Shown here one piece after another: positions 17,673 to 44,121 of a stretch of DNA of 64,000 nucleotides. The notes below the pieces were generated by a model. It searched no databases, was not told the origin of the DNA, and saw only the letters and a list, made by a program, of their open reading frames with translations. A program made the position numbers and the translations under genes. Source of the stretch: Ruminococcus sp. Its GTDB lineage: Bacteria; Bacillota; Clostridia; Oscillospirales; Ruminococcaceae. The stretch is from contig JAFXSC010000022.1 of the NCBI GenBank assembly GCA_017525915.1, forward strand, positions 1 through 64,000. Direction: 5' to 3'. Each line of letters opens with the position of its first letter. Position 1 is the stretch's first letter.

Positions 17673-19760
17673 TCACACTCCGAAAAGAAGTTTGTCGTAT
17701 GTCGGGAAGGGATAGTAGTCCTCGGCTGTCATCGTTTCAGCCTTGTCGGCAGCCGTACGGAGCTTATCCATTGCAGGTATCATCTTGTCGCGGACGAACT
17801 CGGACTCCTTTTTGATATCGCCGATAGTCTTAAGCTTTGCAACTGTATCTTCAAGCTTTGAAGCAGCCTCGTCCATTGCGTCAACGAGAACTGACAGTTC
17901 CTCGACGAGCTTGGTCTCATACTTGCAGGCGACCTTTGACACGCTCTTCTTTACCGCAACTGCGGAAGCTGTATCAGCGGCGAACTTTGCAACAGCAGGG
18001 ATTATCTCCTTGCGAGCCATATCTACCATTGTCTGAGCTTCGATGTTTACGGACTTGACGTAGTTTTCGAGCATGATGTCGCAGCGTGAGAATATCTCAG
18101 CCTCGGTGAAGATACCGTGAGATGTGAGCATCTCAACGTTCTTCTTGTCGCATATCTTAGGCATACAGTCGGCAGTTGTGCGGAGGTTGGAAAGTCCGCG
18201 CTTCTCGGCTTCCTTTACCCATGAATCGTCGTAGCCGTTGCCGTTGAAGATTATGCGCTTGTGCTCCTTGATAGTTTTCTTGATGAGGTCATGGAGAGCC
18301 TTGTTGAAGTCCTTGGCACCTTCGAGTTTGTCGGCAAACTGCTTCAATACCTCGGCAACTGCACCATTGAGGTGAATGTTAGCGCAGGAGATACTGTTCG
18401 ACGAGCCGAGCATACGGAACTCGAACTTGTTGCCGGTGAATGCGAAAGGAGATGTACGGTTTCTGTCGGTGGTATCCTTGCTGAACTGCGGAAGAACATC
18501 AACACCCAGCTTCATTTTCTCCTTTGCAGTGCCGCCGTAGGGCTTGTCGTTCTCGATAGCTTCGAGTATAGCTGTGAGCTCGTCACCGAGGAAGATAGAG
18601 ATTATAGCAGGAGGAGCTTCGTTTGCTCCGAGACGGTGGTCGTTGCCGGCAGTTGCTACTGAAAGTCTCAGCAGATCCTGATAATCGTCAACAGCCTTGA
18701 TAACAGCTGCAAGGAAGAGCAGGAACTGAGCGTTCTCATAGGGAGTTTCACCGGGAGAGAGGAGGTTCACGCCTGTATCAGTGGAAATGGACCAGTTGTT
18801 GTGCTTGCCGGAGCCGTTTACGCCCTCGAACGGCTTTTCGTGGAGCAGGCAGACAAGACCGTGGCGCTCTGCTACTTTTTTCATAACTTCCATTGTGAGC
18901 TGGTTGTGGTCAGCGGCAATGTTCGTGGTCTTGTAGATAGGTGCAAGCTCGTGCTGAGCGGGAGCAACCTCGTTGTGCTTTGTCTTGGCGAGGATACCGA
19001 GCTTCCAGAGCTCCTTGTCGAGGTCAGCCATGTATTCTGCAACTCTTGTCTTGATAGAGCCGAAGTAGTGATCTTCCATTTCCTGACCCTTGGGAGGCAT
19101 TGCGCCGAACAGTGTACGACCGGTCATGATGAGGTCTTTTCTCTTCTTGTACATCTCGCGGTCAACGAGGAAGTATTCCTGCTCAGGGCCAACAGATGTG
19201 CGGACGCTTCTGACATTCTCGTTGCCGAACAGCTTCAGCACGCGGAGTGCCTGCTTGTTGAGAGCTTCCATTGAGCGGAGGAGCGGTACCTTCTTGTCAA
19301 GAGCCTCGCCTGTGTAGGAGCAGAACGCTGTCGGGATGTAGAGCGTACCGTCCTTGATGAATGCGTAGGAAGTCGGGTCCCAAGCCGTATAGCCGCGGGC
19401 CTCGAATGTTGCACGAAGTCCGCCGGAGGGGAACGATGAAGCGTCAGGCTCACCCTTGACGAGTTCCTTGCCCGAGAACTCCATGATAACTCTGCCGTCG
19501 GGAGCAGGAGTGATGAAGCTGTCGTGCTTTTCTGCGGTTACGCCTGTCATAGGCTGGAACCAGTGGGTGTAGTGGGTCGCGCCTTTTTCGATAGCCCAGT
19601 CCTTCATAGCGGCAGCTACGACGTTTGCTACTGAAATATCGAGGGGAGTGCCTCTGTCGATAGTCCTTTTAAGGGACTTGTAAACCTTCTCGGAGAGGGT
19701 AGCCTTCATTACTCTCTCATCGAATACCATTGAACCAAAATACTCTGTTACCTTTTCCAT
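17673..19760 (-). CDS. glnN: Glutamine synthetase type III
   Basis: 695 residues, within the usual size of the large GSIII class common in Bacteroidetes and Ruminococcus. It makes glutamine from glutamate, ammonium and ATP as a dodecamer. Recognisable pieces are [45 protein letters not shown] and [16 protein letters not shown]. The C-terminal helical extension (about 570-690) is the GSIII C-terminal domain. It sits 15 bases after pyrG. Nothing is visible for separate regulation, so it probably rides on the upstream amt/pyrG transcript. Confidence 0.95.
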
Positions 19761-19775
19761 TTTTATTTCCTCCGT

Positions 19776-21398
<1,623 letters not shown>

Positions 21399-21405
21399 TT
21401 ATGAG

Positions 21406-21471
21406 AAAGGCGTTCCGCAGACAGGTGGAGATATTTCCGTTTTTTAAGTGGAAGTGCCTGCGGAAGCCTTT
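21406..21471 (-). other. Long-stem hairpin between amt and pyrG
   Basis: 21406-21420 pairs with 21458-21471 (14 base pairs with one bulge) around a 37-base loop. On the minus strand the stem ends in GCCTTTCTCAT, a poor T-run. It may partly terminate amt transcription or set expression of the downstream pyrG-glnN genes. Confidence 0.5.
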
Positions 21472-21477
21472 ATCAGC

Positions 21478-23286
21478 TTAAGCTTTTTCCCATTCCGCGG
21501 AATCGTGGAGAGCGTTGTAGCCTTCCTCGCCGGTACGGATCTTGATTACGTTCTCGATGTCGTAAATGAACATCTTGCCGTCACCGTAGTTTCCGGTGTA
21601 GAGGGCAGCCTTTGCTGCTGCAACTACCTTGTCAACGGGAACTGCACATACAGCGATCTCAGCTTTTACCTTTGGCAGCAGGTTCATCTCAACAGTAGTA
21701 CCACGATAGTAGTTTACCTGTCCGTTCTGCATTCCGCAGCCGAGAACGTTCGTGACTGTGATACCCTTTACGTCGATAGCCTCCATAGCCTCAATGAACT
21801 GCTGGAGCTTCTGCTGTTTGAAGATAACTACGATATTTGTGAGCTTCTGTCTGCCGTCCGGTGAAGGAACGGAGTAGTTCTCAACTTCAACTGCCTTGTC
21901 AACAGGAACTGCCGGTGCAGCGGGCTTTTCAACCTTCTTGACGCTCTTTGCATCGTCCTTTGTATAGCCGTAAACTGAAGCGTCGTTCATTGAAGGTGCA
22001 AAGTCAGCGTAAGAGGAAATAAGACCGTGCTCAGTAACATCAAGACCGATGATCTCTTCCTGCTCGGAAGCGCGGAGACCGACAGTGTGCTTGATTACGA
22101 GGAATACGATAGCCATTGAAACTGCTGTGAATGCTGCGATAGCTGCGAAGCCGCCGAGCTGTCTGCCGAGAAGTCCGAAGCCGCCGCCGTAGAATACGCC
22201 TGCGAGCTCGTTGCCGTCCTGATCAGCGAGTGCGTAGCCGGGAACGTCAGGATTTGCGAAGAGACCGACTGCGATAGTGCCCCAGATACCGTTCATCATA
22301 TGAACTGCAACCGCACCGACAGGATCATCGATGTGGAGCTTGTAATCGAGGAACCAAACGCCGAAGCAAACAAGCAGACCGGAAACGATACCGATGATAG
22401 AAGCGCCGAGACAGTCTGTAACATCACAGGGAGCTGTGATACCGACGAGTCCAGCAAGTGAAGCGTTAAGACACATTGAAACGTCGGGCTTGCCGTATTT
22501 TACCCATGTGAATATCATGCAGGTAACTGTTGCGATTGCGGGAGCAACTGTTGTTGTGAGGAATACAGAACCGAGCTGGTCGATAGAAGTACAAGCGGCA
22601 CCGTTGAAGCCGTACCAGCCGAACCAGAGGATGAAGCAGCCGAGAGCACCGATTGTAAGGTTGTGACCGGGGATAGCGTTTACCTTGATCTCGCCGTCCT
22701 TAGTCTTTGAGAATTTACCGATTCTCGGTCCGAGGATAGCTGCGCCTACGAGGGCTGCGATACCGCCGACCATGTGGATATGTGCCGAACCTGCGAAATC
22801 GTGGAAGCCCCATTCGCTCAGCCAGCCGCCACCCCAGCCCCAGTGGGCTTCTATCGGGTAAACGACTGCGCTGATTACAGCGGAGTAAACACAGTATGAA
22901 AGGAACTTTGTACGCTCAGCCATTGCACCGGAAACGATAGTAGCTGTCGTAGCACAGAATACAAGGTTGAATACGAAGTTTGACCAGTCGAATGAGCCGT
23001 AGGAAGTGAAGATATCAAATCCGGGCTTACCGATGATGCCGACTGCGTCCTCACCGAAGAGGAGACCGAAGCCTATGAGTATGAAAACAACTGTACCGAT
23101 ACAGAAGTCCATAAGGTTTTTCATAATGATATTGCCGGCGTTCTTGGCACGGGTGAAGCCTGTCTCCACCATTGCGAAGCCTGCCTGCATAAAGAATACG
23201 AGTGCAGCGCCTATTAAGAACCATACTCCGAAAATCGTTTTGTCAGTGTTTTCGGCAGCTTGTTGAAGAATTGTCTGAGAGTCCAT
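21478..23286 (-). CDS. amt: Ammonium transporter fused to a PII signalling domain
   Basis: 602 residues. Residues 1 to about 435 are an Amt/Mep/Rh channel with eleven membrane segments and the signatures DFAGSAHIHMVGG and GALGCFILWFGWYGFNG. After a linker (about 440-475) a complete PII (GlnB/GlnK) domain fills about 478-602. Its T-loop region is GQVNYYRGTTVEMNLLPK, its B-loop TGNYGDGKMFIYDI, and it ends KIRTGEEGYNAL. PII normally plugs Amt reversibly in response to 2-oxoglutarate and ATP/ADP; here the plug is covalently attached. It has its own promoter (23485-23513) and two terminator-like hairpins in the leader, and it diverges from gltB. Confidence 0.95.
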   Translation of the reverse strand: MDSQTILQQAAENTDKTIFGVWFLIGAALVFFMQAGFAMVETGFTRAKNAGNIIMKNLMDFCIGTVVFILIGFGLLFGEDAVGIIGKPGFDIFTSYGSFDWSNFVFNLVFCATTATIVSGAMAERTKFLSYCVYSAVISAVVYPIEAHWGWGGGWLSEWGFHDFAGSAHIHMVGGIAALVGAAILGPRIGKFSKTKDGEIKVNAIPGHNLTIGALGCFILWFGWYGFNGAACTSIDQLGSVFLTTTVAPAIATVTCMIFTWVKYGKPDVSMCLNASLAGLVGITAPCDVTDCLGASIIGIVSGLLVCFGVWFLDYKLHIDDPVGAVAVHMMNGIWGTIAVGLFANPDVPGYALADQDGNELAGVFYGGGFGLLGRQLGGFAAIAAFTAVSMAIVFLVIKHTVGLRASEQEEIIGLDVTEHGLISSYADFAPSMNDASVYGYTKDDAKSVKKVEKPAAPAVPVDKAVEVENYSVPSPDGRQKLTNIVVIFKQQKLQQFIEAMEAIDVKGITVTNVLGCGMQNGQVNYYRGTTVEMNLLPKVKAEIAVCAVPVDKVVAAAKAALYTGNYGDGKMFIYDIENVIKIRTGEEGYNALHDSAEWEKA

Positions 23287-23367
23287 AAAAATACCTCCTG
23301 AATAATATTACAGCATTTTTATACCGCTTCCTCAAACGCCATTGTTGTGAGACTGAGTATAAATTCA

Positions 23368-23406
23368 AAAGGGTGCATGATGCCTTGAAGCATCATACAC
23401 CCCTTT
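23368..23406 (-). promoter_or_regulatory. Second leader hairpin of amt (terminator-like)
   Basis: 13 base pairs with one mismatch (23371-23383 with 23390-23402), loop UUCAAG on the RNA, plus an A/T extension to 23368 and 23406. On the minus strand it is followed by TTTTGAATTT. It lies between the amt promoter and the amt ATG, so it would fold in the leader RNA. Confidence 0.6.
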
Positions 23407-23430
23407 GTGTATGGAATTAGCGCTTAAACC

Positions 23431-23465
23431 AAAAAAGAGAGCTACGGATATCTTATCCGCAGCTC
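23431..23465 (-). terminator. Promoter-proximal terminator in the amt leader
   Basis: A 12-base stem with one mismatch (23439-23450 with 23454-23465) is followed on the minus strand by TTTTTT (23436-23431). It begins only about 13 bases after the predicted transcription start, so full-length amt mRNA needs read-through or antitermination. Confidence 0.75.
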
Positions 23466-23484
23466 CCTTGCTGTTTACAATGCC

Positions 23485-23513
23485 ATTATAGCTCATGGCG
23501 AATGATTTGTCAA
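23485..23513 (-). promoter_or_regulatory. Consensus promoter of amt
   Basis: TTGACA (23513-23508), 17 bases, TATAAT (23490-23485) on the minus strand. An inverted repeat GCCAT..ATGGC (23482-23499) overlaps the -10 and might be an operator. Confidence 0.9.
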
Positions 23514-23614
23514 TAGCTTTTTTGAAATTTGACGTTTCGCATATTTTTTGATTTGTGTTAGCGAATAATAACTGTGCATTTTTTACGAAAGCGCAGAAAT
23601 GCCCGATTTTCCTA

Positions 23615-23643
23615 TTGACATTTCCGCTTTAACGTGGTAAGAT
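23615..23643 (+). promoter_or_regulatory. Promoter of gltB
   Basis: TTGACA (23615-23620), 17 bases, TAAGAT (23638-23643). It is divergent from the amt promoter, with about 100 bases between the two -35 boxes. Confidence 0.85.
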
Positions 23644-23648
23644 GTTTT

Positions 23649-23701
23649 CAGTAACAAGGACGTTCGTACAGGCTTACTGTCTGTATGGACGTCCTTTTTT
23701 T
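23649..23701 (+). terminator. Attenuator-like terminator in the gltB leader
   Basis: AAGGACG (23656-23662) pairs with CGTCCTT (23690-23696), continued after an internal loop by TACAG/CTGTA (23667-23671 with 23681-23685), then a T-run (23695-23701). It lies right after the transcription start and about 70 bases before the start codon. CAGTAA (23649-23654) can instead pair with TTACTG (23674-23679), and this cannot coexist with the full terminator: a possible antiterminator. Confidence 0.75.
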
Positions 23702-23758
23702 GAACGTCAATAAAATTTGACATTCAATATTATACGATGCGGATCAATGGCGCTCCGC
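23702..23758 (+). promoter_or_regulatory. Two small hexaloop hairpins before gltB
   Basis: Hairpin one (23702-23725) has an eight-pair stem with one mismatch and hexaloop UAAAAU. Hairpin two (23739-23758) has stem GCGGA/UCCGC, a U-C mismatch, a closing C-G pair and hexaloop AAUGGC (23746-23751). Paired hexaloop hairpins are what ANTAR proteins bind. Loop two fits the A1/G4 rule; loop one does not. The second hairpin ends three bases before the GGAAAGG ribosome site. Confidence 0.5.
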
Positions 23759-23771
23759 ACCGGAAAGGCAA

Positions 23772-26700
23772 GTGAATGATATGGACAATTTCAGAACAGA
23801 AGCTCCTTACCAGCAGCAGGGACTTTACAGTCCGCGCTTCGAGCATGACAACTGCGGTATCGGAGCAGTAGTGAACATCAATGGCGAACAGTCACGGTAT
23901 GTTGTGGAAAATGCTCTCACTATCGTTGAAAAGCTGGAACACCGTGCAGGCAAGGACGCTGAGGGCAAGACCGGCGACGGTGTTGGAATACTTGTACAAA
24001 TGCCGTACAGCTTCTTTATAAATGAGGCTAAGAAGCTCGGTGCAGAGCTTGGCGGGAACGGCGATTTCGGCGTTGGAATGTTCTTCCTCCCGCAGAGTGA
24101 GCTGAGACGTGACCGCGCAAAGAAGCTCTTTGAAAAGATCATAGACAACAACGGCATGGAGTTCATATGCTGGCGTGAAGTTCCGACTTCCGCTTCTATA
24201 TTAGGTCACAAGGCTCTTGACAGTATGCCGTGTATCATGCAGGCTTTCGTAAAGCGTCCCGACAGCTGCAAAAAGGGACTTGACTTCGACCGCAGGCTCT
24301 TTATTGCAAGACGCGAATTCGAGCAGTCCAACGAGGACACATACGTCTGCTCACTGTCGAGCCGTACTATTGTATATAAGGGAATGTTCCTCGTTGACGA
24401 GCTGAGAAGGTTTTATACAGACCTCCAGAGCGAGGACTTCACATCGGCTATCGCAATGGTACACTCCCGTTTCTCAACAAATACAAATCCGAGCTGGCAG
24501 AAGGCTCACCCCAACCGCTTCATCGTTCACAACGGCGAAATAAACACTATCACAGGCAACGCTGACAAGATGCTTGCCCGTGAGGAGACAATGGCGTGTG
24601 AGACACTCAGCGCCGATATGCACAGGATACTTCCGGCTATAAACATAAACGGTTCGGACTCCGCAAGACTTGACAACGCTCTTGAATTCATGGTGATGTC
24701 CGGAATGCCGCTGCCGCTTGCAGTTATGATAACGATTCCCGAGCCTTGGAAGAACGACAAGACCATCTCCAAGGCAAAGTACGATTTCTACCAGTATTAC
24801 GCCACTATGATGGAGCCGTGGGACGGTCCTGCGTCCATACTTTTCTCCGACGGTGACGTAATGGGAGCAGTCCTCGACAGAAACGGTCTCCGTCCGTCAA
24901 GATATTGTATAACCAATGACGGTTTCCTCATTCTTTCTTCCGAGACAGGCTGTATCGATATCGCACCTGAGAAGATAGTGAAGAAGGACCGTCTCCGTCC
25001 CGGAAAAATGCTCCTTGCGGATACAAAGCAGGGACGCATCATAGAGGACGACGAGATAAAGAATACCTACGCTTCACGCCAGCCCTACGGCGAGTGGCTT
25101 GACGCTAATCTTGTACGTCTTCACGACCTGCATATCCCGAACAAGGGGGTACAGACCTACTCTAAGGACGAGCTTGCGAAGCTCCACAAGGCATTCGGCT
25201 ATTCGTATGAGGATATCCGCACATCTGTACTGCCAATGGCTGAAAAAGGCGCCGAGCCTATCGCTTCTATGGGAAGTGATATTCCGCTTCCGCCTCTGGA
25301 CAAGCAGTCTCCGCCGCTTTTCAACTACTTCCGTCAGCTGTTCGCACAGGTAACAAATCCGCCGTTTGATGCTATCCGTGAGGAAGTCGTTACCGATACC
25401 AGCGTCTATATCGGCAAGGACGGCAATATCCTTGAGGAGCGCCCCGAGAACTGCCACGTCCTCAAAATTGAGAATCCTATCCTCACCGAGACGGATATGC
25501 TCAAGATAAAGAGCCTTCACTCCGACGGACTGAAAAGCGCTGTTATCCCGATAACCTATTACATCGGTACCTCACTTGACAAGGCAATAGAGCGCCTTTT
25601 CATTGACGCTGACAAGGCTTACCGTGACGGTGCTTCTATTCTCATTCTCTCCGACCGCGGCGTGGACGAATACCACTGTCCGATACCATCTCTCCTTGCA
25701 GTTGCAGCTCTCCAGCAGCACCTTGTTTCCACGAAAAAGCGCACGGCTGTTGCGATGATACTTGAATCCGCAGAGCCCAGAGAGGTTCACCATTTTGCAG
25801 CACTTCTCGGCTACGGTGCGTGTGCTGTGAATCCATATCTCGCACATGAGACTATCCGTTCACTTATCGAGGACGGCTCTCTTGACAAGGACTTCTATGC
25901 CGCCGAGGACGACTACAACAGTGCTATACTCCACGGCATCGTAAAGATAGCTTCTAAAATGGGTATATCCACTATCCAGTCCTATCAGGGCAGCAAGCTC
26001 TTTGAAGCTGTTGGCATTTCTCAGGAGCTTATCGACCGCTATTTTGCAGGTACTGTCAGCCGTATCGGCGGCATAGGACTTGCTGATATAAGCCGCCGCA
26101 CTGAGGCTCTCCATACAGCAGCATACGATCCGCTTGGACTTCATGTTGGCAGCGACGTCAAGAGCGCAGGCAGCCACAAGCTTCGCAGCGGAAAGAGCGA
26201 ACATCTCTACACTCCCGAGACGATACATCTGCTCCAGCAGGCAGCGTGGACGGGCAGCTACGATACATTCAAGAAGTATTCCGAAGCTCTTAACCGTGAA
26301 GACAATGAGCTGACGCTGAGAAGTCTCCTTGACTTCAATTTCGACAGTGCCGCTGAGATACCGCTCGATGAAGTAGAGTCCGTCGAGAGCATCTGCAAGC
26401 GTTTCAAGACAGGCGCTATGTCCTACGGTTCCATTTCGCAGGAAGCACATGAGTGCATGGCAATGGCTATGAACAGCATCGGCGGCAAGTCCAACAGCGG
26501 CGAGGGCGGAGAAAGTCCCGAGCGTCTGAAATCCGACAAGTGCTCGGCTATCAAGCAGGTGGCTTCCGGACGCTTCGGCGTTACATCGGAATACCTCGTT
26601 TCCGCACAGGAGATTCAGATAAAAATGGCACAGGGCGCTAAGCCAGGCGAGGGCGGACATCTTCCCTCGGGCAAGGTTTATCCGTGGATAGCAAAGACCC

Positions 26701-28316
26701 GTCATTCAACGGCAGGCGTGGGACTTATCTCGCCTCCGCCTCACCATGACATATACTCTATCGAGGACCTCGCACAGCTCATATACGACCTCAAAAACGC
26801 CAACGACAAGGCGCGCATCTCCGTCAAGCTCGTATCAGAAGCAGGCGTTGGGACTGTTGCGGCAGGCGTTGCAAAGGCAGGCGCACAGGTAATACTTATC
26901 TCCGGTTATGACGGAGGTACAGGTGCCGCTCCCAAGAGCTCGATATACAATGCAGGACTTCCATGGGAGCTCGGACTTGCCGAAGCTCACCAGACGCTCA
27001 TGCTCAATGGTCTCCGTTCGCGTGTACGCATAGAAACGGACGGCAAGCTCATGACAGGCCGTGACGTACTTGTTGCCGCACTTCTCGGCGCAGAGGAATT
27101 CGGCTTCGCAACAGCTCCGCTGGTAACAATGGGCTGCGTGATGATGAGAGTGTGCAACCTTGACACCTGCCCTATGGGTATCGCAACGCAGAACCCCGAG
27201 TTGAGAAAGCGTTTTCGCGGCAAGCCGGAATATATCGTGAACTTCATGCACTTCATCGCGCAGGAGCTCCGTGAGTACATGGCAAAGCTTGGCATACGCA
27301 CGGTTGACGAACTTGTCGGACGCACAGACCTCCTCCGTATCAGGGACAGCGCCGCAGAAAAGAACATCGACTTCACGAAAATTCTCGCAAACAGCACAGC
27401 CGGCGGCAAAAAGCACTTCGATGCAGACGATATTTACGATTTTGCACTTGACAGCACCATAGACCGCCGTGTTATAATAAAGAAGCTGGGAAGTGCGCTG
27501 AAAAACGGTACTCCCAAGGCTATTTCCATTGACGTTGTGAACACCGACCGTTCCGTGGGAACTCTCACAGGTGCGGAGATAACCCGTATCCACGGCGAAA
27601 ACGTACTTGCTGACGACACATTCACTGTTAAATGTACAGGCAGCGGCGGACAGTCCTTCGGTGCGTTCATACCCAAGGGACTTACGCTTGAACTTGTCGG
27701 TGACAGCAACGACTACTTCGGCAAGGGACTTTCGGGCGGCAGACTCGTCCTCAGTCCGCCGGCAGCTTCCACCTTCAGGGCTGACGAGAATATCATCGTC
27801 GGAAACGTTGCGCTCTACGGTGCAACATCGGGCAAGGCATTCATCAACGGCGTTGCAGGCGAGCGCTTCTGCGTAAGAAATTCCGGTGCAACAGCGGTCT
27901 GCGAGGGCGTGGGCGACCACGGCTGCGAGTACATGACCGGCGGACGTGCTGTTATCCTCGGACGCACAGGCAAGAACTTTGCTGCAGGTATGTCCGGCGG
28001 CATTGCCTATGTACTTGACGAGGAGCACGACCTCTACACAAGGCTCAACAAGGCTCTTGTTTCACTTGAAACAGTCACCGAGGAAGATGATATCGCCGAG
28101 CTGAAAGCCATCATCACCGAGCACGCAGAGGCTACCGGCTCAGAAAAGGCAAAACAGATTCTTGCGGACTTTGAGCGCTATCTGCCGTGCTTCAAGAAGG
28201 TAATACCTCACGATTACGCGAAGATACAGAAGACAGTTACCGCACTCGAAAAGAACGGTGTGAGCAGCGAACAGGCTATGATAGAAGCCTTCGAGCTCAT
28301 CAGAAAGGAGGCGTGA
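23772..28316 (+). CDS. gltB: Glutamate synthase large subunit
   Basis: About 1514 residues, full length. It transfers the amide of glutamine to 2-oxoglutarate, giving two glutamates. The N-terminal class II glutaminase begins after a propeptide at Cys28 (HDNCGIGAVVN). The FMN/2-oxoglutarate domain holds GGKSNSGEGGESPER and KPGEGGHLPSGKV. The 3Fe-4S cysteines are in RVCNLDTCPMGIAT. A C-terminal beta-helix closes it (FGAFIPKG, GAFIN-like repeats, GVGDHGCEYMTGG). The start is uncertain: GGAAAGG (23762-23768) is 3 bases from the GTG used here and 12 from an ATG at 23781. gltD follows after three bases. Confidence 0.95.
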   Translation: MNDMDNFRTEAPYQQQGLYSPRFEHDNCGIGAVVNINGEQSRYVVENALTIVEKLEHRAGKDAEGKTGDGVGILVQMPYSFFINEAKKLGAELGGNGDFGVGMFFLPQSELRRDRAKKLFEKIIDNNGMEFICWREVPTSASILGHKALDSMPCIMQAFVKRPDSCKKGLDFDRRLFIARREFEQSNEDTYVCSLSSRTIVYKGMFLVDELRRFYTDLQSEDFTSAIAMVHSRFSTNTNPSWQKAHPNRFIVHNGEINTITGNADKMLAREETMACETLSADMHRILPAININGSDSARLDNALEFMVMSGMPLPLAVMITIPEPWKNDKTISKAKYDFYQYYATMMEPWDGPASILFSDGDVMGAVLDRNGLRPSRYCITNDGFLILSSETGCIDIAPEKIVKKDRLRPGKMLLADTKQGRIIEDDEIKNTYASRQPYGEWLDANLVRLHDLHIPNKGVQTYSKDELAKLHKAFGYSYEDIRTSVLPMAEKGAEPIASMGSDIPLPPLDKQSPPLFNYFRQLFAQVTNPPFDAIREEVVTDTSVYIGKDGNILEERPENCHVLKIENPILTETDMLKIKSLHSDGLKSAVIPITYYIGTSLDKAIERLFIDADKAYRDGASILILSDRGVDEYHCPIPSLLAVAALQQHLVSTKKRTAVAMILESAEPREVHHFAALLGYGACAVNPYLAHETIRSLIEDGSLDKDFYAAEDDYNSAILHGIVKIASKMGISTIQSYQGSKLFEAVGISQELIDRYFAGTVSRIGGIGLADISRRTEALHTAAYDPLGLHVGSDVKSAGSHKLRSGKSEHLYTPETIHLLQQAAWTGSYDTFKKYSEALNREDNELTLRSLLDFNFDSAAEIPLDEVESVESICKRFKTGAMSYGSISQEAHECMAMAMNSIGGKSNSGEGGESPERLKSDKCSAIKQVASGRFGVTSEYLVSAQEIQIKMAQGAKPGEGGHLPSGKVYPWIAKTRHSTAGVGLISPPPHHDIYSIEDLAQLIYDLKNANDKARISVKLVSEAGVGTVAAGVAKAGAQVILISGYDGGTGAAPKSSIYNAGLPWELGLAEAHQTLMLNGLRSRVRIETDGKLMTGRDVLVAALLGAEEFGFATAPLVTMGCVMMRVCNLDTCPMGIATQNPELRKRFRGKPEYIVNFMHFIAQELREYMAKLGIRTVDELVGRTDLLRIRDSAAEKNIDFTKILANSTAGGKKHFDADDIYDFALDSTIDRRVIIKKLGSALKNGTPKAISIDVVNTDRSVGTLTGAEITRIHGENVLADDTFTVKCTGSGGQSFGAFIPKGLTLELVGDSNDYFGKGLSGGRLVLSPPAASTFRADENIIVGNVALYGATSGKAFINGVAGERFCVRNSGATAVCEGVGDHGCEYMTGGRAVILGRTGKNFAAGMSGGIAYVLDEEHDLYTRLNKALVSLETVTEEDDIAELKAIITEHAEATGSEKAKQILADFERYLPCFKKVIPHDYAKIQKTVTALEKNGVSSEQAMIEAFELIRKEA

Positions 28317-28319
28317 GCC

Positions 28320-29804
28320 ATGGGAAAAGCAACAGGATTTCTTGAATTTGCAAGAACAGAAACGTTGGCAAAGGAACCGCTCGAGCGTATAAAGGACTTC
28401 AACGAGTTCCACATTCAGCTCTCGGAAGAAAAGCGTAAGGAGCAGGCTTCACGCTGCATGGATTGCGGAGTGCCGTTCTGTCAGAACGGAAAAATGCTCT
28501 GCGGAATGATCTCAGGCTGTCCGCTCAACAACCTCATTCCCGAGTGGAACGACCTCCTTTATCACGGTCAGAAGGAGCAGGCGCTGAGCCGTCTGCTGAT
28601 GACGAACAACTTCCCGGAGTTCACTTCGAGGGTTTGTCCGGCACTGTGCGAGAAGGCTTGTATCTGCGGTGTTTACGATTCTCCGGTTACTACGAAGGAG
28701 AACGAAAATTCAATAATCGAATTCGGCTTCGCGAATGGTCTTATGCAGCCGCAGATACCTGCCGTAAGAAGCGGTAAGCGTGTAGCGGTAATCGGCTCCG
28801 GTCCTTCGGGACTTGCTGCCGCTGACACTCTCAACAAGCGCGGTCACAGCGTGACGGTGTTCGAGCGCTCTGACCGTGTGGGCGGACTGCTGATGTACGG
28901 TATCCCTAATATGAAGCTTGAAAAGCACATCATAGACCGCCGCGTTGAGCTTATGAAGGCTGAGGGCGTGGAGTTCAGAACTGATTCAAATGTTGGCGAA
29001 AACGTAAAGGCTGACGAGCTCCTCAGAGATTATGACGCAGTCGTACTTGCCTGCGGCTCTTCAAATCCGCGTGACATAAAGGCGGAGGGACGCGACGCTG
29101 AGGGTATTTACTTCGCGGTGGATTTCCTCAGAGCGACCACAAAGAGCCTGCTTGACTCAGAGCTGAAAGACGGAAAGTTCATCTCCGCAAAGGACAAGAA
29201 CGTTGTCATAATCGGCGGCGGTGATACAGGCAATGACTGTGTTGGTACATCTGTACGTCACGGCTGCAGGTCGGTGGTACAGCTCGAAATGATGCCGAAG
29301 CTCCCCGATGAGAGAGCCGCAAACAATCCGTTCCCGGAGTGGCCAAGAGTATGCAAGACTGACTACGGTCAGGAGGAAGCGATAGCGGTATTCGGTCGCG
29401 ACCCGCGAATCTACTGCACAACGGTGAAGGAGTTCATCAAGGACGAGAACGGCAAGCTTTCAGCCATAAAGACGGTCAAGCTCGAATTCGGTACTGACCC
29501 CGAAACAGGCAGACGCACGATGAACGAGATAGCAGGCAGTGAGGAAACGCTTCCCTGCGAACTCTGCCTTATAGCGGCAGGCTTCTTAGGCTGTCAGCAG
29601 TATGTAGCGGAGGCTTTCGGAGTATCCCTCGATCAGCGCACTAACGTAAAAACAGCACCCGGCAAACATTTCACAGACGTTGAAAAGGTATTCACAGCAG
29701 GCGATATGCACATCGGACAGTCGCTCGTGGTACGCGCTATCCGTGAGGGACGTGACGCCGCGGCAGAGGTGGACGAATACCTTATGGGCTACACCAATCT
29801 ATGA
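28320..29804 (+). CDS. gltD: Glutamate synthase small subunit
   Basis: 494 residues. It passes electrons from NAD(P)H through FAD and 4Fe-4S clusters to GltB. Clustered cysteines near the N-terminus (SRCMDCGVPFCQ and CGMISGCPLNN, then CPALCEKACICGVY) bind the iron-sulfur clusters. The FAD motif is VAVIGSGPSGLAAADTL and the NAD(P)H motif VVIIGGGDTGNDCVGTS. The end GDMHIGQSLVVRAIREGRDA is conserved. AAAGGAGG eight bases before the ATG lies within the end of gltB, so the subunits are coupled. Confidence 0.95.
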   Translation: MGKATGFLEFARTETLAKEPLERIKDFNEFHIQLSEEKRKEQASRCMDCGVPFCQNGKMLCGMISGCPLNNLIPEWNDLLYHGQKEQALSRLLMTNNFPEFTSRVCPALCEKACICGVYDSPVTTKENENSIIEFGFANGLMQPQIPAVRSGKRVAVIGSGPSGLAAADTLNKRGHSVTVFERSDRVGGLLMYGIPNMKLEKHIIDRRVELMKAEGVEFRTDSNVGENVKADELLRDYDAVVLACGSSNPRDIKAEGRDAEGIYFAVDFLRATTKSLLDSELKDGKFISAKDKNVVIIGGGDTGNDCVGTSVRHGCRSVVQLEMMPKLPDERAANNPFPEWPRVCKTDYGQEEAIAVFGRDPRIYCTTVKEFIKDENGKLSAIKTVKLEFGTDPETGRRTMNEIAGSEETLPCELCLIAAGFLGCQQYVAEAFGVSLDQRTNVKTAPGKHFTDVEKVFTAGDMHIGQSLVVRAIREGRDAAAEVDEYLMGYTNL

Positions 29805-29817
29805 TACGGAGGCTAAA

Positions 29818-31095
29818 ATGATATATTCTGAAAATGAGATATTGCAGTATATCGAGGAAAACGACGTTAAATTCGTAAAGCTCACATTCTGCGATATGAA
29901 GGGCAGACTGAAAAATATCTCTGTACTTTCATCGGAGCTTGCAGTTACCTTTGAGCGCGGAGTACGCATAACTGCAAAGAAAATAGCAGGCTTCGAGGCT
30001 GCAAACGGCAAAGACCTCTTCCTCTTCCCCGACGCTCAGACCATGACCGTTCTCCCGTGGAGGCCTCAGCAGGGCAGAGTTATCAGAATGTTCTGCTATA
30101 TCCGCTATGAGGACGGCACCCCCTTTGAGGGCGACGGCAGATACTTCCTCAAAAAGGCAATGAAGGCAGCTGTTGCGGCAGGCTATTGCTTCCGCTTCGG
30201 AACATCCTGCGAGTTCACGCTTTTCCGCAGGGACGATAACGGTCTGCCCACGAAAACTCCCCACGACTTTGCCGGCTACTGCGACGTTGCTCCCGATGAC
30301 AAGGGGGAGAATATCCGCCGCGATGTATGCCTTACTCTCGAGCAGATGGGGATCCACCCTATTTCATCACGTCATGAGAGCGGCTGCGGACAGCATGAGA
30401 TAGACTTCAACGCATCGTCCGCGCTTAAAGCTGCCGATACGTTCCTCAGCTTCAAATCCGCTGTAAAGTCGGTCGCTGAGACTCATGGCGTACACGCCAG
30501 CTTCATGCCTAAGCCCCTCCGCAATGACTGCGGCAACGGTATGCACATCAGCTTCAACGTTTTCCCGGACAACGATATGCTTGAGGAGACGAAGCCGAAT
30601 GACAATGAGCTGCTCAGAAGCGCAGCGGCAGGTATAATGAAGCACATCCGCGAGTTTACGATGTTCACGAATTCGACGGTGAATTCCTACGCGCGGCTCG
30701 GAGAATTCGCTGCTCCGCGCGACATTATCTGGTCTGATGAGGAGGGCTCACAGCTTATCCGTATGAACCCTGACAGCGAAAATACATCAGTTGAGCTCCG
30801 CGCCGCTGACTGTGTCTGTGATCCGTATTTCGTGCTCGGCCTGATGATATACGCTGCACTTGAAGGTTTTGAGGAAAAGCTCCCGCTGCCGGAGAAGAAC
30901 ACAGGCTCGGAGCGCCTGCCGTCCACGCTTGATGAAGCGATAAGCTGTACCGAGAGCTCGGAATTCGTGAAGAAGTACGTTCCCGCGAATATACTTGAAG
31001 TTCTTCTGAGATACAGCCGCGAGGAATGGCGCGGATATTCCGCCGCCTACGACAAGGAAGCATTCGAGGAAAAACAGTATTTTTACATTCTCTGA
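29818..31095 (+). CDS. Glutamine synthetase family protein (GSI-like)
   Basis: 425 residues. I start at the ATG at 29818 because GGAGG lies five bases upstream; a longer reading from 29680 would sit inside gltD. Glutamine synthetase landmarks are partly kept: VKLTFCDMKGRLKN, CEFTLFRRDD, GCGQHEIDFN, GNGMHISFN and SVELRAADCVCDPYFVLGL. It is shorter than classical GSI and some catalytic stretches are altered (for example GMHISFN for GMHxHQS), so it might ligate an amine other than ammonium. Its position between gltD and an ANTAR regulator supports a nitrogen role. GSIII (glnN) is probably the main glutamine synthetase. Confidence 0.85.
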   Translation: MIYSENEILQYIEENDVKFVKLTFCDMKGRLKNISVLSSELAVTFERGVRITAKKIAGFEAANGKDLFLFPDAQTMTVLPWRPQQGRVIRMFCYIRYEDGTPFEGDGRYFLKKAMKAAVAAGYCFRFGTSCEFTLFRRDDNGLPTKTPHDFAGYCDVAPDDKGENIRRDVCLTLEQMGIHPISSRHESGCGQHEIDFNASSALKAADTFLSFKSAVKSVAETHGVHASFMPKPLRNDCGNGMHISFNVFPDNDMLEETKPNDNELLRSAAAGIMKHIREFTMFTNSTVNSYARLGEFAAPRDIIWSDEEGSQLIRMNPDSENTSVELRAADCVCDPYFVLGLMIYAALEGFEEKLPLPEKNTGSERLPSTLDEAISCTESSEFVKKYVPANILEVLLRYSREEWRGYSAAYDKEAFEEKQYFYIL

Positions 31096-31107
31096 CGGAG
31101 GTAAGCT

Positions 31108-31689
31108 TTGGATAAAATTCTTGTAGTTTCAAGTAATAAAAGCGCCTCTGAAGCTCTTGTGAATTTCCTCCGCGATTCGTTCAGATGTACCCCTAAGCTT
31201 GCCGAATCAGCATATCAGGCAAAGACAGTTTTCGATGCCGACCCGTCCGTGGAGCTTGCGGTTATAAACTCTCCGCTCATGGACGAATCAGGCTTTGAGC
31301 TTGCGGAATACATCATTGAGAACACCACCGCCAACTGCATCTTTATGATAAAGGACGAGCAGACTGAAAAGGTAGCCGACCGTGCCGACAAGACCGGTAT
31401 CATCATTGTCGGAAAGCCGTTCAGCCGCACGCTCCTCTACCAGCTCATAAAAACGCTTGATATAGCCGTGAACCGCTCACTTAAACTATATGAGGAGAAC
31501 CAACGGCTGGAAGCAAAGATCGAGGAGATACAGGCGATAGACAAGGCGAAGTTCATGCTGATGCAGTACAAGGGCATGACCGAGGATGAAGCACACGCTT
31601 ATCTTGAACAGTACGCAATGAACAAGCGCAAGAAGAAGAGTCTTGCGGCACTGGCGATAATAGATAAGCTGAGCGAGCAATATTTATAA
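31108..31689 (+). CDS. ANTAR-domain antiterminator with a pseudo-receiver
   Basis: 193 residues, TTG start with GGAGG six bases upstream. The N-terminal 120 residues have a response-regulator fold but lack key residues: the acidic pair is replaced (VVSSN) and the phosphoacceptor position is Asn54 (LAVINSPLMDESG), although the switch Lys remains (GKPF). A coiled coil (about 123-140, YEENQRLEAKIEEIQ) leads to the ANTAR domain (about 138-190: IDKAKFMLMQYKGMTEDEA, then AHAYLEQYAMNKRKK). ANTAR proteins (NasR, AmiR, EutV) bind paired RNA hairpins to stop premature termination. Phosphorylation control seems unlikely. It sits 12 bases after the GS-like gene. Leaders of amt and gltB are the obvious targets, by inference. 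Confidence 0.9.
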   Translation: MDKILVVSSNKSASEALVNFLRDSFRCTPKLAESAYQAKTVFDADPSVELAVINSPLMDESGFELAEYIIENTTANCIFMIKDEQTEKVADRADKTGIIIVGKPFSRTLLYQLIKTLDIAVNRSLKLYEENQRLEAKIEEIQAIDKAKFMLMQYKGMTEDEAHAYLEQYAMNKRKKKSLAALAIIDKLSEQYL

Positions 31690-31703: not shown

Positions 31704-33125
31704 ATGTTTGACAGTATCCATGAGGAATGCGGAGTTTTCGGCATATATGAGAGCAAGATCTCTGATGTTGCCGCATCGGTATATTTCGGACTGTATGCGC
31801 TCCAGCACAGGGGACAGGAGAGCTGTGGCATAACTGTCTGCGATGACGGAATATTCCGGCATAAACGCGCGGACGGACTTGTCTCGGAGGTGTTCAGCCG
31901 CGAAGAGCTTGACAAGCTTGGCAGCGGCAATATGGCTGTTGGACACGTCCGCTACTCCACAACGGGCGGTCACAACCACAACAATATCCAGCCGCTCGTT
32001 ATCCGCCATATCAAGGGCAATATGGCTCTCGTCCACAACGGCAACCTCGTCAATGCGGCTGAGCTCCGCCGCTCCTTTGAGATGTCTGGAGCTATCTTCC
32101 ACGGCACTTCTGATACGGAGGCGATAGCCTATTCGATAGTACGCGAGCGCCTTTCGAGCAGCTCCACCGAGCAGGCTGTTGAACGTGCAATGCCCTTTAT
32201 CAAGGGTGCTTATTCGTGCATTCTCATGACCGCGACCAAGCTCATCGCTTTCCGCGACCCTGACGGCTTCCGGCCGCTCTGCATCGGCAAGACCCGTGAC
32301 GGAGCTTACGTTGTGGCTTCGGAATCCTGCGCTCTTGAAACAGTGGGCGCAGAGTTCCTGCGCGATGTTGATGCAGGCGAGATAGTCGTAATAGGTAAGG
32401 ACGGCTTGAAGTCCATACGCACCAACTGCACTGACAGGCGCAATATCTGCATTTTCGAGTATATTTACTTTGCACGTCCGGATTCCGTAATTGAGGGAAT
32501 ATCAGTTCACCACGCCCGCCGCAGAGCAGGCGAGCTCCTTGCAAAGAGCAGTCCCGTTAACGCGGATATAGTTATAGGTGTTCCAGATTCGGGACTGGAC
32601 GCGGCTCTCGGTTACGCCAACGCAAGCGGCATACCCTACGGTATCGGCTTCATCAAGAACAAGTACATCGGTCGCAGCTTCATTCAGCCCGAACAGCACC
32701 AGCGTGAGAATGCAGTCAAGATAAAACTCAACGCCGTCCGCGAGAGCGTTGCAGGGAAGCGCGTAATAATGATAGATGATTCGATAGTCCGCGGCACGAC
32801 GAGTGCGAGAATTGTGAAACTGCTGCGTGAAGCAGGAGCAAAAGAGGTGCACGTTCGTATCTCGTCACCGGCTTTCCTGCACACTTGCCACTTCGGCACG
32901 GACATCGACTCTGAGGAAAACCTCATCGCCGGCAAGTGCAGTTCGACCGAGGAAATTGCTCAGTATATCGGCGCGGACAGCCTTGCGTACCTGCCGGTCG
33001 AATGCCTCGGTGAGCTTGTGGACAACAAATTCGGCTACTGCAATGGCTGCTTCACGGGAAGTTATCCTGTGGACATTTCTGGTGCAGGAAGCAAGAATAA
33101 GTTCGACGAGAAAATACACGGATAA
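31704..33125 (+). CDS. purF: Amidophosphoribosyltransferase
   Basis: 473 residues. It makes phosphoribosylamine from PRPP and glutamine, the first step of purine synthesis. Cys9 (HEECGVFGIY) becomes the N-terminal nucleophile after propeptide removal. The PRPP loop is VIMIDDSIVRGTTSA. Late cysteines (CHFGTDID, FGYCNGCFTGSYP) suit the Fe-S-containing B. subtilis-type enzyme. It follows the ANTAR gene by 14 bases, so a purine gene is joined to the nitrogen transcript. Confidence 0.95.
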   Translation: MFDSIHEECGVFGIYESKISDVAASVYFGLYALQHRGQESCGITVCDDGIFRHKRADGLVSEVFSREELDKLGSGNMAVGHVRYSTTGGHNHNNIQPLVIRHIKGNMALVHNGNLVNAAELRRSFEMSGAIFHGTSDTEAIAYSIVRERLSSSSTEQAVERAMPFIKGAYSCILMTATKLIAFRDPDGFRPLCIGKTRDGAYVVASESCALETVGAEFLRDVDAGEIVVIGKDGLKSIRTNCTDRRNICIFEYIYFARPDSVIEGISVHHARRRAGELLAKSSPVNADIVIGVPDSGLDAALGYANASGIPYGIGFIKNKYIGRSFIQPEQHQRENAVKIKLNAVRESVAGKRVIMIDDSIVRGTTSARIVKLLREAGAKEVHVRISSPAFLHTCHFGTDIDSEENLIAGKCSSTEEIAQYIGADSLAYLPVECLGELVDNKFGYCNGCFTGSYPVDISGAGSKNKFDEKIHG

Positions 33126-33223: not shown

Positions 33224-33254
33224 ACGCTGTACATCAATGGCGATGTACGAGCGT
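33224..33254 (+). promoter_or_regulatory. AAUGGC-hexaloop hairpin before asnB
   Basis: ACGCT-GTACATC (33224-33235) pairs with GATGTAC-(G)-AGCGT (33242-33254): 12 pairs with a single bulged G. The loop is AAUGGC (33236-33241), the same hexaloop and flanking UC/G as in the gltB leader (23744-23752). No T-run follows, so it is not a terminator. The 33126-33293 gap also holds two smaller palindromes (33156-33170 region and 33178-33194 region). I see no promoter there. Confidence 0.5.
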
Positions 33255-33293: not shown

Positions 33294-34874
33294 ATGTGTA
33301 CGATAATGGCATACTGCGGTCTGAAGGACGGCACGGGAAAAGTTATGGAGGGGCTGAAAGCTACGGTCTCACGCGGTCCTGACGACCAGAGGATAGTCAG
33401 GGTGCCTGATGGTCTGCTCGGCTTCCAGAGGCTTTCCATTATGGGACTTACTCCCGAGGGAATGCAGCCCTTTGAGCTGGACGGCGATTTTGCAGTCTGC
33501 AACGGTGAGATATACGGCTTCAGGAAGCTCCGTGAAGAGCTCATCTCAAAGGGATACGTTTTCAGAAGCGACAGCGATTGTGAGATACTGCTCCCGATGT
33601 ACCGTGAATATGACACGGATATGTTCGCAAAGCTGGACGCCGAGTTTGCCTGCGTGATCTACGACGGGGCAACAGGGGAGTTCATAGCTGCCCGTGACCC
33701 GATTGGCATTCGTCCACTGTATTACGGCAAATCTGATGACGGGACGATGGTATTTGCAAGCGAGCCCAAGAACCTTGTTAAGTGCTGTAAAAAGATCATG
33801 CCTTTCCCTCCCGGACACTATTACAAGGACGGAAAATTCCACTGCTACTGCGATATCACAGCCGTAGACAAGGTCGTTCACGATGATATTGATACAGTCT
33901 GCAAGAATATCCACGACAAGCTCGTTTCGGGCGTGAAGAAGCGCCTTGACGCTGATGCAAAGGTGGGATTTCTGCTTTCGGGCGGACTTGATTCCTCACT
34001 TGTATGTGCTATCGCTCAGCGCGAGAGTGACAAACCGATACGCACGTTCGCTATCGGCATGAACACCGATGCTATCGACCTCAAATACGCAAAACAGGTC
34101 GCGGACTACATCGGCAGTGACCACACTGAGGTCATCATTACAAAGGACGACGTTATTGCTGCTCTTGACGATGTTATACACCTTCTCGGTACATATGATA
34201 TCACAACTATCCGTGCAAGCATGGGTATGTATCTGCTCTGCAAGGCTATCCATGAGCAGACCGATATCCGCGTGCTGCTCACAGGCGAGATATCCGATGA
34301 GCTTTTCGGCTATAAGTATACGGACTTTGCTCCGTCAGCCGAGGCTTTCCAAGCCGAGTCCGTGAAGCGTGTCCGCGAGCTGCATATGTACGATGTGCTC
34401 CGTGCAGACCGCTGTATATCAGTAAATTCTCTCGAAGCCCGTGTGCCGTTCGGCGACCTTGACTTCGTGAAGTATGTCATGGCGATAGACCCTGAGATGA
34501 AGCTCAACAAGTACAATAAGGGCAAGTATCTCCTCCGTCACGCCTTTGAGGGCGACTACCTGCCGCACGACATTCTTTACCGCGAAAAGGCGGCGTTCTC
34601 AGACGCTGTGGGACATTCAATGGTGGACTACCTCAAGGAATACGCCAACAGTTCCTACTCCGATGAGGAGTTCGAGCTGAAATGCACAAAGTACACCCAC
34701 GCGAAGCCCTTCACTAAGGAGTCGCTCCTGTACCGCGAGATATTCGAGAAATACTACCCCGGCAACAGTGAAATGGTCGTAGATTTCTGGATGCCCAACA
34801 AGGAGTGGGAGGGCTGCAACGTGAATGATCCTTCCGCAAGAGTTCTTTCAAACTACGGTGCAAGCGGCAAATAA
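33294..34874 (+). CDS. asnB: Asparagine synthase, glutamine-hydrolysing (526 aa)
   Basis: The ATG at 33294 follows GGAGGG by seven bases and places Cys at position 2 (MCTIMAYCG), as the Ntn glutaminase nucleophile requires; a longer reading from 33192 would bury it. Glutaminase motifs are SRGPDDQRIV and CNGEIYGFRKL. The synthetase ATP-pyrophosphatase motif is LLSGGLDSSLV, and LEARVPFGDLDFV is also typical. It converts aspartate to asparagine. At 526 residues it is near the E. coli AsnB size and differs clearly from the second copy at 60247. It ends the rightward nitrogen run. Confidence 0.95.
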   Translation: MCTIMAYCGLKDGTGKVMEGLKATVSRGPDDQRIVRVPDGLLGFQRLSIMGLTPEGMQPFELDGDFAVCNGEIYGFRKLREELISKGYVFRSDSDCEILLPMYREYDTDMFAKLDAEFACVIYDGATGEFIAARDPIGIRPLYYGKSDDGTMVFASEPKNLVKCCKKIMPFPPGHYYKDGKFHCYCDITAVDKVVHDDIDTVCKNIHDKLVSGVKKRLDADAKVGFLLSGGLDSSLVCAIAQRESDKPIRTFAIGMNTDAIDLKYAKQVADYIGSDHTEVIITKDDVIAALDDVIHLLGTYDITTIRASMGMYLLCKAIHEQTDIRVLLTGEISDELFGYKYTDFAPSAEAFQAESVKRVRELHMYDVLRADRCISVNSLEARVPFGDLDFVKYVMAIDPEMKLNKYNKGKYLLRHAFEGDYLPHDILYREKAAFSDAVGHSMVDYLKEYANSSYSDEEFELKCTKYTHAKPFTKESLLYREIFEKYYPGNSEMVVDFWMPNKEWEGCNVNDPSARVLSNYGASGK

Positions 34875-43884: not shown

Positions 43885-43890
43885 ATAGAA

Positions 43891-44121
43891 AACTGTGAAC
43901 GGATAAAACCCGTGCAGAGCCAGATCCAGAGAGCTTCCGGTCGGTGCGAGGAGGCGAAGGCGCATGGAGAACTACATCCGGGAGTTGCCGTGCTGAACTT
44001 GCAGTAGGTGCGGACGGGTCTGCCCGTTACAGCTCAACGAGGTGCGTATCCACGCATAAAACAGGGTGGTAACACGGAGAATTTCGTCCCTGTACAGTCG
44101 TTGGCTGTACAGGGCATTTTT
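43891..44121 (+). ncRNA. Tyrosine-specific T-box riboswitch
   Basis: A leader of about 230 bases contains the T-box core AGGGTGGTAACACGG (44063-44077). It ends in an intrinsic terminator that overlaps the 3' side of the core. In stem I the specifier is GAAC-UAC-A, with UAC (Tyr) at 43973-43975. Uncharged tRNA-Tyr would pair with the specifier and the T-box bulge (UGGU) to favour the antiterminator. The downstream tyrS agrees with the specifier. Confidence 0.9.
44088..44121 (+). terminator. Regulated terminator of the T-box
   Basis: CCCTGTACAG (44088-44097) pairs perfectly with CTGTACAGGG (44105-44114), followed by CATTTTTG. Its 5' arm would be used by the antiterminator when tRNA-Tyr is uncharged. 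Confidence 0.9.

Follow-up and report, generated by a model that had tools for sequence, protein, structure and literature searches.

Described ANTAR systems and the nitrogen cluster

The control of nitrogen genes by ANTAR proteins has precedents, such as NitR of Clostridium saccharobutylicum, which is reported to induce glutamine synthetase (GS) and glutamate synthase (GOGAT) genes by antitermination under nitrogen limitation (PMC6316151), and the dual-hexaloop targets predicted before nitrogen genes in many bacteria (PMC3369931); in C. thermocellum, whose GOGAT cluster includes an ANTAR gene, such control has been suspected (PMC4676874). The EutV-type target is a short stem capped by a six-base loop (hexaloop) in which the first base is A (A1) and the fourth is G (G4) (PMC3369931). 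Here we analyse a nitrogen gene cluster that includes an ANTAR gene (31108-31689, plus strand) and lies in a window of 64,000 nucleotides (nt), the whole stretch of DNA considered (positions 1 to 64,000 of contig JAFXSC010000022.1, assembly GCA_017525915.1). The genome is Ruminococcus flavefaciens-like: its ANTAR protein shares 96% identity with its counterpart in Ruminococcus sp. RGIG6826 and 93% with the one in R. flavefaciens ATCC 19208. With a probability of roughly three in four, we consider this cluster to be a nitrogen-limitation regulon under transcription antitermination, in which the ANTAR protein acts on hexaloops at the 5' ends of the transcripts and the adjacent GS fold serves as its sensor.

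Several described systems resemble this locus in part. It shares with the EutV attenuators of Enterococcus faecalis an ANTAR protein, hexaloops with A1 and G4, a short stem and an overlap with a terminator, and with the targets predicted in PMC3369931 the nitrogen genes concerned. Unlike in the EutV system, a single hexaloop stands near the transcript 5' end with no preceding hairpin (P1) at 5-12 nt, the loop is stricter (A2 and a C-G closing pair), amt carries tandem hexaloop/terminator units, and the receiver domain lacks the phosphorylated Asp. As in the description of NitR in PMC6316151, the ANTAR gene is clustered with GS/GOGAT genes; the differences from that description are that the GS beside it is a pseudoenzyme and that the RNA element has been defined. 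AmiR has a pseudo-receiver (PMC8934654), and the combination of an ANTAR protein, a degenerate receiver and a proposed neighbouring sensor recalls AmiC-AmiR and NasS-NasT, the likeness here being one of gene adjacency, with a GS fold as the candidate sensor instead of AmiC or NasS. In Bacillus subtilis, glutamine synthetase is a nitrogen sensor for TnrA (PMC6316151), and a comparable role is proposed here for the enzyme itself, with the difference that TnrA binds DNA, whereas the present regulator is of an RNA-binding type and its GS can be catalytically dead.

Control of GS/GOGAT genes by an ANTAR protein is already known from NitR. Among the matches listed in the literature searched (supplements and subscription papers lying outside it), none connects ANTAR nitrogen control with a GS-like pseudoenzyme or with single-hexaloop leaders, and as far as this search shows, what appears to be new is the single 5'-end hexaloop, its coupling to the presence of ANTAR genes, and a GS pseudoenzyme partner accompanied by Asp loss. 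To our knowledge, a single 5'-end hexaloop would be the smallest antitermination site of the family. Two published searches for ANTAR targets were built on two stem-loops (PMC3369931, PMC8164766), and would miss single hexaloops.

Hexaloops, promoters and terminators in the leaders

As the earlier note had stated, amt and gltB diverge from two promoters, TTGACA-17-TATAAT for amt (23485-23513, minus strand; 12/12 consensus matches, predicted start near 23478) and TTGACA-17-TAAGAT for gltB (23615-23643, plus strand; 10/12 matches), the latter with a 17-nt spacer in 37/37 distinct leaders. The terminators announced before both genes are also present, T1 of amt at 23435-23469 on the minus strand (16 pairs; z -6.2 against shuffles) and that of gltB at 23656-23703 on the plus strand (18 pairs; -29.3 kcal/mol, z -8.6), together with a third stem of 19 pairs that had been overlooked in the amt leader (T2, 23407-23366 on the minus strand), which is putative as a terminator because its U tract is short and weak. 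When folded, the three terminators exceed dinucleotide shuffles in stability by 6 to 9 standard deviations, and their 19, 18 and 16 pairs far exceed those of the other stems, the next having 9 pairs among 24 terminator-like stems listed over 19.5 kb.

What the earlier note had missed in the amt and gltB leaders are the ANTAR-type hexaloops. The conserved leader element is a hairpin of the form C[AANGNN]G with a six-base loop of ANTAR type, and its loop and 3' arm open the terminator; together with a terminator the hairpin occurs once before gltB, twice before amt and once before a second glutamine synthetase type III (GSIII) gene of the same genome (glnN2, contig C23), overlapping in each case the 5' arm of the intrinsic terminator (at amt, those of T1 and T2). 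Since the loop and 3' arm of the hexaloop begin the 5' arm of the terminator, the two structures should be mutually exclusive.

To what extent is this element conserved? Relatives of the locus were fetched from other assemblies (49 loci, L003-L051). Hexaloop A of gltB, AAC[AAGGAC]GTT (23653-23664, plus strand), starts no more than about 3 nt from the predicted start of transcription and takes the form AAC[AANGRC]GTT in 37/37 distinct leaders (from 39 loci, the window among them), three of which have G-U as the third pair; loop positions A1, A2 and G4 are invariant in all 37 and the others vary. The distance from the -10 box to the first loop base is 10-13 nt in the same 37 leaders, so that the hairpin would begin a few bases from the predicted transcript start. 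Hexaloop A of amt, CAGC[AAGGGA]GCTG (23460-23473, minus strand), likewise lies near the transcript 5' end, has A1, A2 and G4 in 26/26 rows of the alignment, and stands 15 nt behind the -10 box in 23 of 24 leaders, the other (L046) having unread bases. Hexaloop B of amt, CATACAC[AAAGGG]GTGTATG (23394-23413, minus strand; 7 pairs), lies in T2 and keeps G4 in 26/26 rows and A1 in 25/26, L005 having GAAGGG. A further candidate in the amt leader, AAC[AATGGC]GTT near 23340 (14.9 bits), was dropped, as by eye it is absent from the other 25 rows.

In the glnN2 leader, the element reads ATTGGAAC[AATGGC]GTTCCGAT, and a terminator arm further downstream can pair with its 3' half; the -10 box is 29 nt by eye from the first loop base, a longer distance than in the other leaders. 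Among orthologs of this second GSIII gene with 76-96% identity, 10 of the 12 leaders read have the hexaloop (L085 being left aside), and none was found in the 4 leaders read out of 16 fetched loci of the group with 60-62% identity.

Two other hexaloops have no terminator, and perhaps act on translation. Hexaloop B of gltB (23736-23761, plus strand) is a ten-position stem around [AATGGC] directly before the ribosome site; its loop, AANGRN, was found in 35/37 leaders (the pattern missed L036 and L049), always with A1, A2 and G4, and among 27 distinct sequences 8 of its 10 pairs have changed on both sides, with a covariation of 0.631 against 0.179 in shuffled and at most 0.198 in slid alignments. 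Sequestration of the Shine-Dalgarno sequence by this hairpin was considered and dropped, as the TCCG/CGGA pairing is seen by eye in some leaders only. Between the gltB terminator and hairpin B (23704-23733), the window holds about 29 extra bases, including a TTGACA-like stretch, that most aligned relatives do not have. The asnB hexaloop, GTACATC[AATGGC]GATGTAC (33229-33248, plus strand), ends 45 nt before the start codon; its strict form occurs in 20/38 loci, to which L012 and L028 add by eye versions with a T.C mismatch.

The same element was then sought beyond the close relatives, in a class sample of 148 Clostridia genomes, 73 of them with an ANTAR domain in a hidden Markov model (HMM) search. 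Both strands of 74 of the 75 foreign ANTAR regions over the cut-off (693,697 bases) were scanned for a hexaloop A..G on a stem of at least 4 pairs, with the loop opening a terminator arm. This gave 19 embedded hexaloops, every one of which fits C[AA.G..]G, a form that the query did not require, whereas 16 runs on dinucleotide shuffles gave 5 matches in total (about 0.3 each), none of that form. By an automatic rule, the gene downstream is a nitrogen gene in 13 cases (7 GS, 3 GSIII, 2 gltB and 1 weak asnB-like, at 25% identity), an unnamed open reading frame (ORF) of 337-455 codons in 4, and received no call in 2.

The GSIII leaders of the same sample provide a control, in which C[AANGNN]G with at least 4 pairs was searched within 600 nt in 20 ANTAR-positive and 20 ANTAR-negative genomes. 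The hairpin is present in 18/20 of the former and 2/20 of the latter (p 5e-7), and with other stem minima the counts are 19 versus 4 (3 pairs) and 14 versus 2 (5 pairs). It tracks the ANTAR gene within families f12, f18 and f33, is found in none of three leaders of f31, and has one exception in f8 (L229). In 17 of the 18 foreign ANTAR-positive leaders with the hairpin, the first loop base stands 14-18 nt behind the -10 box. The link between ANTAR protein and leaders that the earlier note had put forward is supported by this association.

A generic hexaloop model (R1) run on the window together with L052 and L057 (93,695 bases) gave 12 matches up to E 5, of which the top five are the leader hairpins of amt, gltB and glnN2, and the sixth that of asnB. 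On the own genome, where 150 of 1054 candidates were scored, R1 gave 17 matches with E from 0.09 to 7.4. Leaders account for four of them (amt A, gltB A, gltB B and glnN2), 12 fall within listed ORFs, and one (L071) lies between listed ORFs but by eye is part of an RNase HI-like frame. A pattern combining promoter and hexaloop had 13 matches in the own genome versus 1 for the reversed pattern; four of the 13 have a stem of at least 3 pairs, and among these a terminator follows only at amt and gltB.

The ANTAR protein and its glutamine synthetase neighbour

The ORF at 31108-31689 that the earlier note took for an ANTAR protein does match PF03861, with about 53.6-55.9 bits against a cut-off of 27.3, and an NCBIfam search gave no named family for it. 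It comprises a pseudo-receiver, a coiled coil and the ANTAR domain. In the structural model (pLDDT 85), a receiver, a long helix and the ANTAR domain are distinguished, the receiver fold being present; EutV and AmiR are among the best solved matches, and the VIA-align matches listed are receiver domains only, one domain filling the list. The phosphorylated Asp54 of the receiver is replaced by Asn, and none of the 49 relatives has Asp in the aligned column. In the class sample, Asp54 is kept by 7/53 ANTAR proteins with an adjacent GS gene versus 14/19 of the others (p 2.4e-6), a count from which one region with no ANTAR ORF by HMM and one ORF of 518 codons were excluded. The ANTAR domain exceeds the cut-off at two loci of the own genome, the second (contig C39, L052:9396-11281) being another GS-like/ANTAR pair.

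The gene directly upstream of the ANTAR gene (29818-31095, plus strand) was described in the earlier note as a GS-like enzyme. The family is borne out (PF00120, E 2.6e-71; nearest solved chains are glutamine synthetases; type I fold), and activity is not: the protein scores 273.8 bits with TIGR00653, below the cut-off of 429.15, and in comparison with B. subtilis GlnA has lost D50, S53, E129, N264, E327, R339 and R355 among 17 mapped catalytic sites. A Lys at S53 is common to 45 of 46 full-length relatives, and the GS of the divergent locus L050 differs from the enzyme at 2/17 sites only. The GS-like protein of C39 has lost another set (E129, E212, N264, H269, E327 and R339).

A GS gene (at least 370 codons, same strand, within 400 nt upstream) directly precedes the ANTAR gene in 53/73 cases of the class sample. 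These 53 partners range from intact to strongly degenerate proteins: all 17 sites are intact in 10, a single one, always N264, is lost in 6, and at least five are lost in 9, while E327 is missing in 20/53, in one of these (L200) through an alignment gap. On a tree in which the window, C39 and L200 form long branches of unsure placement, the state of at least five losses needs 5 changes and the loss of E327 needs 7. The window, C39 and the 9 strongly degenerate partners all come from genomes with a GSIII gene as well. Such a repeated loss of residues fits a sensor that no longer needs catalysis, and glutamine synthetase, or its dead copy, may on this comparison of sequences be the nitrogen sensor of the ANTAR protein.

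A proposed antitermination scheme and its alternatives

From the predicted hairpins, terminators and promoters, their conservation, their association with ANTAR genes and the losses of Asp and of GS catalytic residues, we infer the transcript starts, the binding of the ANTAR protein, antitermination, the direction of the signal and a contact between GS and ANTAR protein, which would combine as follows. RNA polymerase would start from strong promoters of sigma-70 type before amt, gltB and the second GSIII gene, and the first 10-30 nt of RNA would fold into the small C[AANGNN]G hairpin. Left unbound, its loop and 3' arm would be absorbed into the longer intrinsic terminator and transcription would end. 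Under nitrogen limitation, active ANTAR protein would hold the hexaloop hairpin and so block the terminator, and amt as well as gltB-gltD-GS-ANTAR-purF would be read, with positive feedback from the ANTAR gene within its own regulated operon. One hexaloop per terminator would suffice, with no separate recruiting hairpin P1. The receiver would not be phosphorylated in the usual way, the input coming instead from the adjacent GS fold: with plentiful nitrogen, the dead GS copy, having bound glutamine or some other effector, would keep the ANTAR protein in an inactive state, as AmiC does with AmiR. A broader version, to which we give slightly less than an even chance, is that in Clostridia an RNA antiterminator has the GS fold as its nitrogen sensor, ancestrally as an active enzyme and repeatedly, after takeover of catalysis by GSIII, as a dead glutamine sensor, and that the Asp-less ANTAR protein acts on a single 5' hexaloop.

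The idea of a single antiterminator controlling the regulon that encodes it, already present in the earlier note, thus keeps its support from the ANTAR-type hexaloops at amt, gltB, asnB and the second GSIII gene, and loses the switch that had been proposed for it. This was a competing pairing of CAGTAA with TTACTG in the gltB leader: the six letters do pair in the window, letter for letter, but among the 37 distinct gltB leaders the pairing is perfect in the window alone, and in 3/37 when G-U pairs are allowed, and it was rejected as an antiterminator, a role that is most improbable. Hardly more credible is that the leaders are metabolite riboswitches or T-boxes unrelated to ANTAR proteins. 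Terminator-bearing leaders of amino-acid genes are often riboswitches; the present ones, however, are short, their hairpin goes with ANTAR genes, and no Rfam match above the gathering score falls on them, the four in the window being a T-box (43886-44094) and three tRNAs.

Several observations count against the antitermination scheme as set out above. EutV antitermination requires two hexaloops with a short linker (PMC8934654). The terminator-free hexaloops before the gltB ribosome site and asnB are not accounted for by the mechanism. The hairpin occurs in the GSIII leaders of two ANTAR-negative genomes (L229 of f8, and L248) and is missing from 2/20 ANTAR-positive ones; both negative calls come from an HMM search of 96-97% complete assemblies, and the ANTAR gene may be absent from the assembly or recently lost. 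An automatic embedding test, which demanded a terminator starting with the first loop base or immediately after it, was passed by 9/20 ANTAR-positive and 2/20 ANTAR-negative GSIII leaders. The own-genome R1 scan is non-exhaustive, its E-values are not significant and its four best matches lie in coding sequence. The Asp is kept by the 7 of 53 GS-adjacent ANTAR proteins counted above, and also by that of C39. Finally, 20/73 ANTAR genes have no adjacent GS by the rule applied, and 10/53 GS partners retain all 17 residues.

These last two counts mean that the GS may stand there merely as a nitrogen gene, and the strongest alternative, which we regard as possible though less likely than not, accepts the hexaloop attenuators as real and sees in the GS a nitrogen gene or a decaying duplicate, the ANTAR protein receiving its input elsewhere, for example from the P-II domain that Amt indeed carries, from a small ligand or from its own abundance. 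GS-like genes could be decaying neighbours; against this, the degenerate GS stays beside the ANTAR gene in the relatives of the window, GS degenerates elsewhere too, with the 5 changes counted on the tree, and loss of the phosphorylated Asp is associated with GS adjacency. It is unlikely that the leaders are read by the second ANTAR protein, that of C39 with its own GS-like neighbour: it keeps the Asp and scores higher with PF03861 (60.9 bits versus 55.9 for the window protein), but the R1 scan found no hexaloop match in the C39 ANTAR region, and in the window, as in the relatives, the ANTAR gene belongs to the operon that the gltB hexaloop precedes.

Could the target still be a dual-hexaloop motif, its hexaloops lying far apart and an ANTAR dimer passing from one to the other? 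PMC8934654 describes an EutV structure with one hexaloop bound at a time, offers a model of successive binding and calls for work on single hexaloops. Two hexaloops are found in the amt and gltB leaders of the window, with 63 nt and 90 nt between A and B, respectively, and some leaders (that of amt, and the GSIII leaders of L211, L214, L220, L224 and L229) have two at 63-101 nt, each followed by eye, in the printed ones, by its own terminator-like stem. The gltB and amt leaders, given their predicted promoters, do not show a P1 joined to P2 by a linker of 5-12 nt, the short distance from the -10 box to the loop leaving little room for a first hairpin; a relaxed dual scan of the class sample, for which no known dual leader served as positive control, gave 1 weak short-linker candidate among 21 embedded hexaloops. 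As only one hairpin is listed for 12 of the 18 hairpin-bearing GSIII leaders from ANTAR-positive genomes, and the second hexaloop exists only after the first terminator has been passed, we consider the dual motif unlikely too.

With one hexaloop per terminator, the antitermination scheme would supply an RNA element and a candidate sensor for ANTAR nitrogen control in Clostridia, rumen bacteria included. Natural leaders of about 55 nt with one hexaloop per terminator would make the single-hexaloop question raised in PMC8934654 testable in vitro. If the GS pseudoenzyme beside an RNA-binding regulator does act as supposed, it would represent a further independent case of GS as a nitrogen sensor, besides that of Bacillus TnrA.

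Gene order and neighbouring features

On the plus strand, gltB (23781-28316, glutamate synthase large subunit), gltD (28320-29804, small subunit), the GS-like gene, the ANTAR gene and purF (31704-33125) follow each other with gaps of 3-14 nt, purF lying 14 nt behind the ANTAR gene and belonging by spacing to the same operon; asnB (33294-34874, asparagine synthase) comes 168 nt further. The order gltB-gltD-GS-ANTAR-purF is kept in relatives as far as the contigs reach, with the exception of L050, and gltB faces the amt start in 25/49 of them. The purF-asnB gap measures 576-627 nt in L005, L008, L012, L013, L023 and L028, with an acetyltransferase-like ORF seen by eye in the printed ones, and 49-73 nt in other relatives, which are without the asnB hexaloop. 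The minus strand carries amt (21478-23286; ammonium transporter with the fused P-II domain, PF00909 and PF00543), pyrG, glnN (17673-19760; GSIII, PF12437), dapF and dapL. As glnN lies behind amt and pyrG, the gene order makes a transcript shared with amt possible.

The T-box leader elsewhere in the window scores 108.4 bits against a gathering score of 93. In the gap between amt and pyrG (21372-21477, minus strand; 106 nt to the ATG at 21371), a GC-rich inverted repeat was seen by eye that has a long loop and a short run of T, and is possibly a weak terminator or attenuator.

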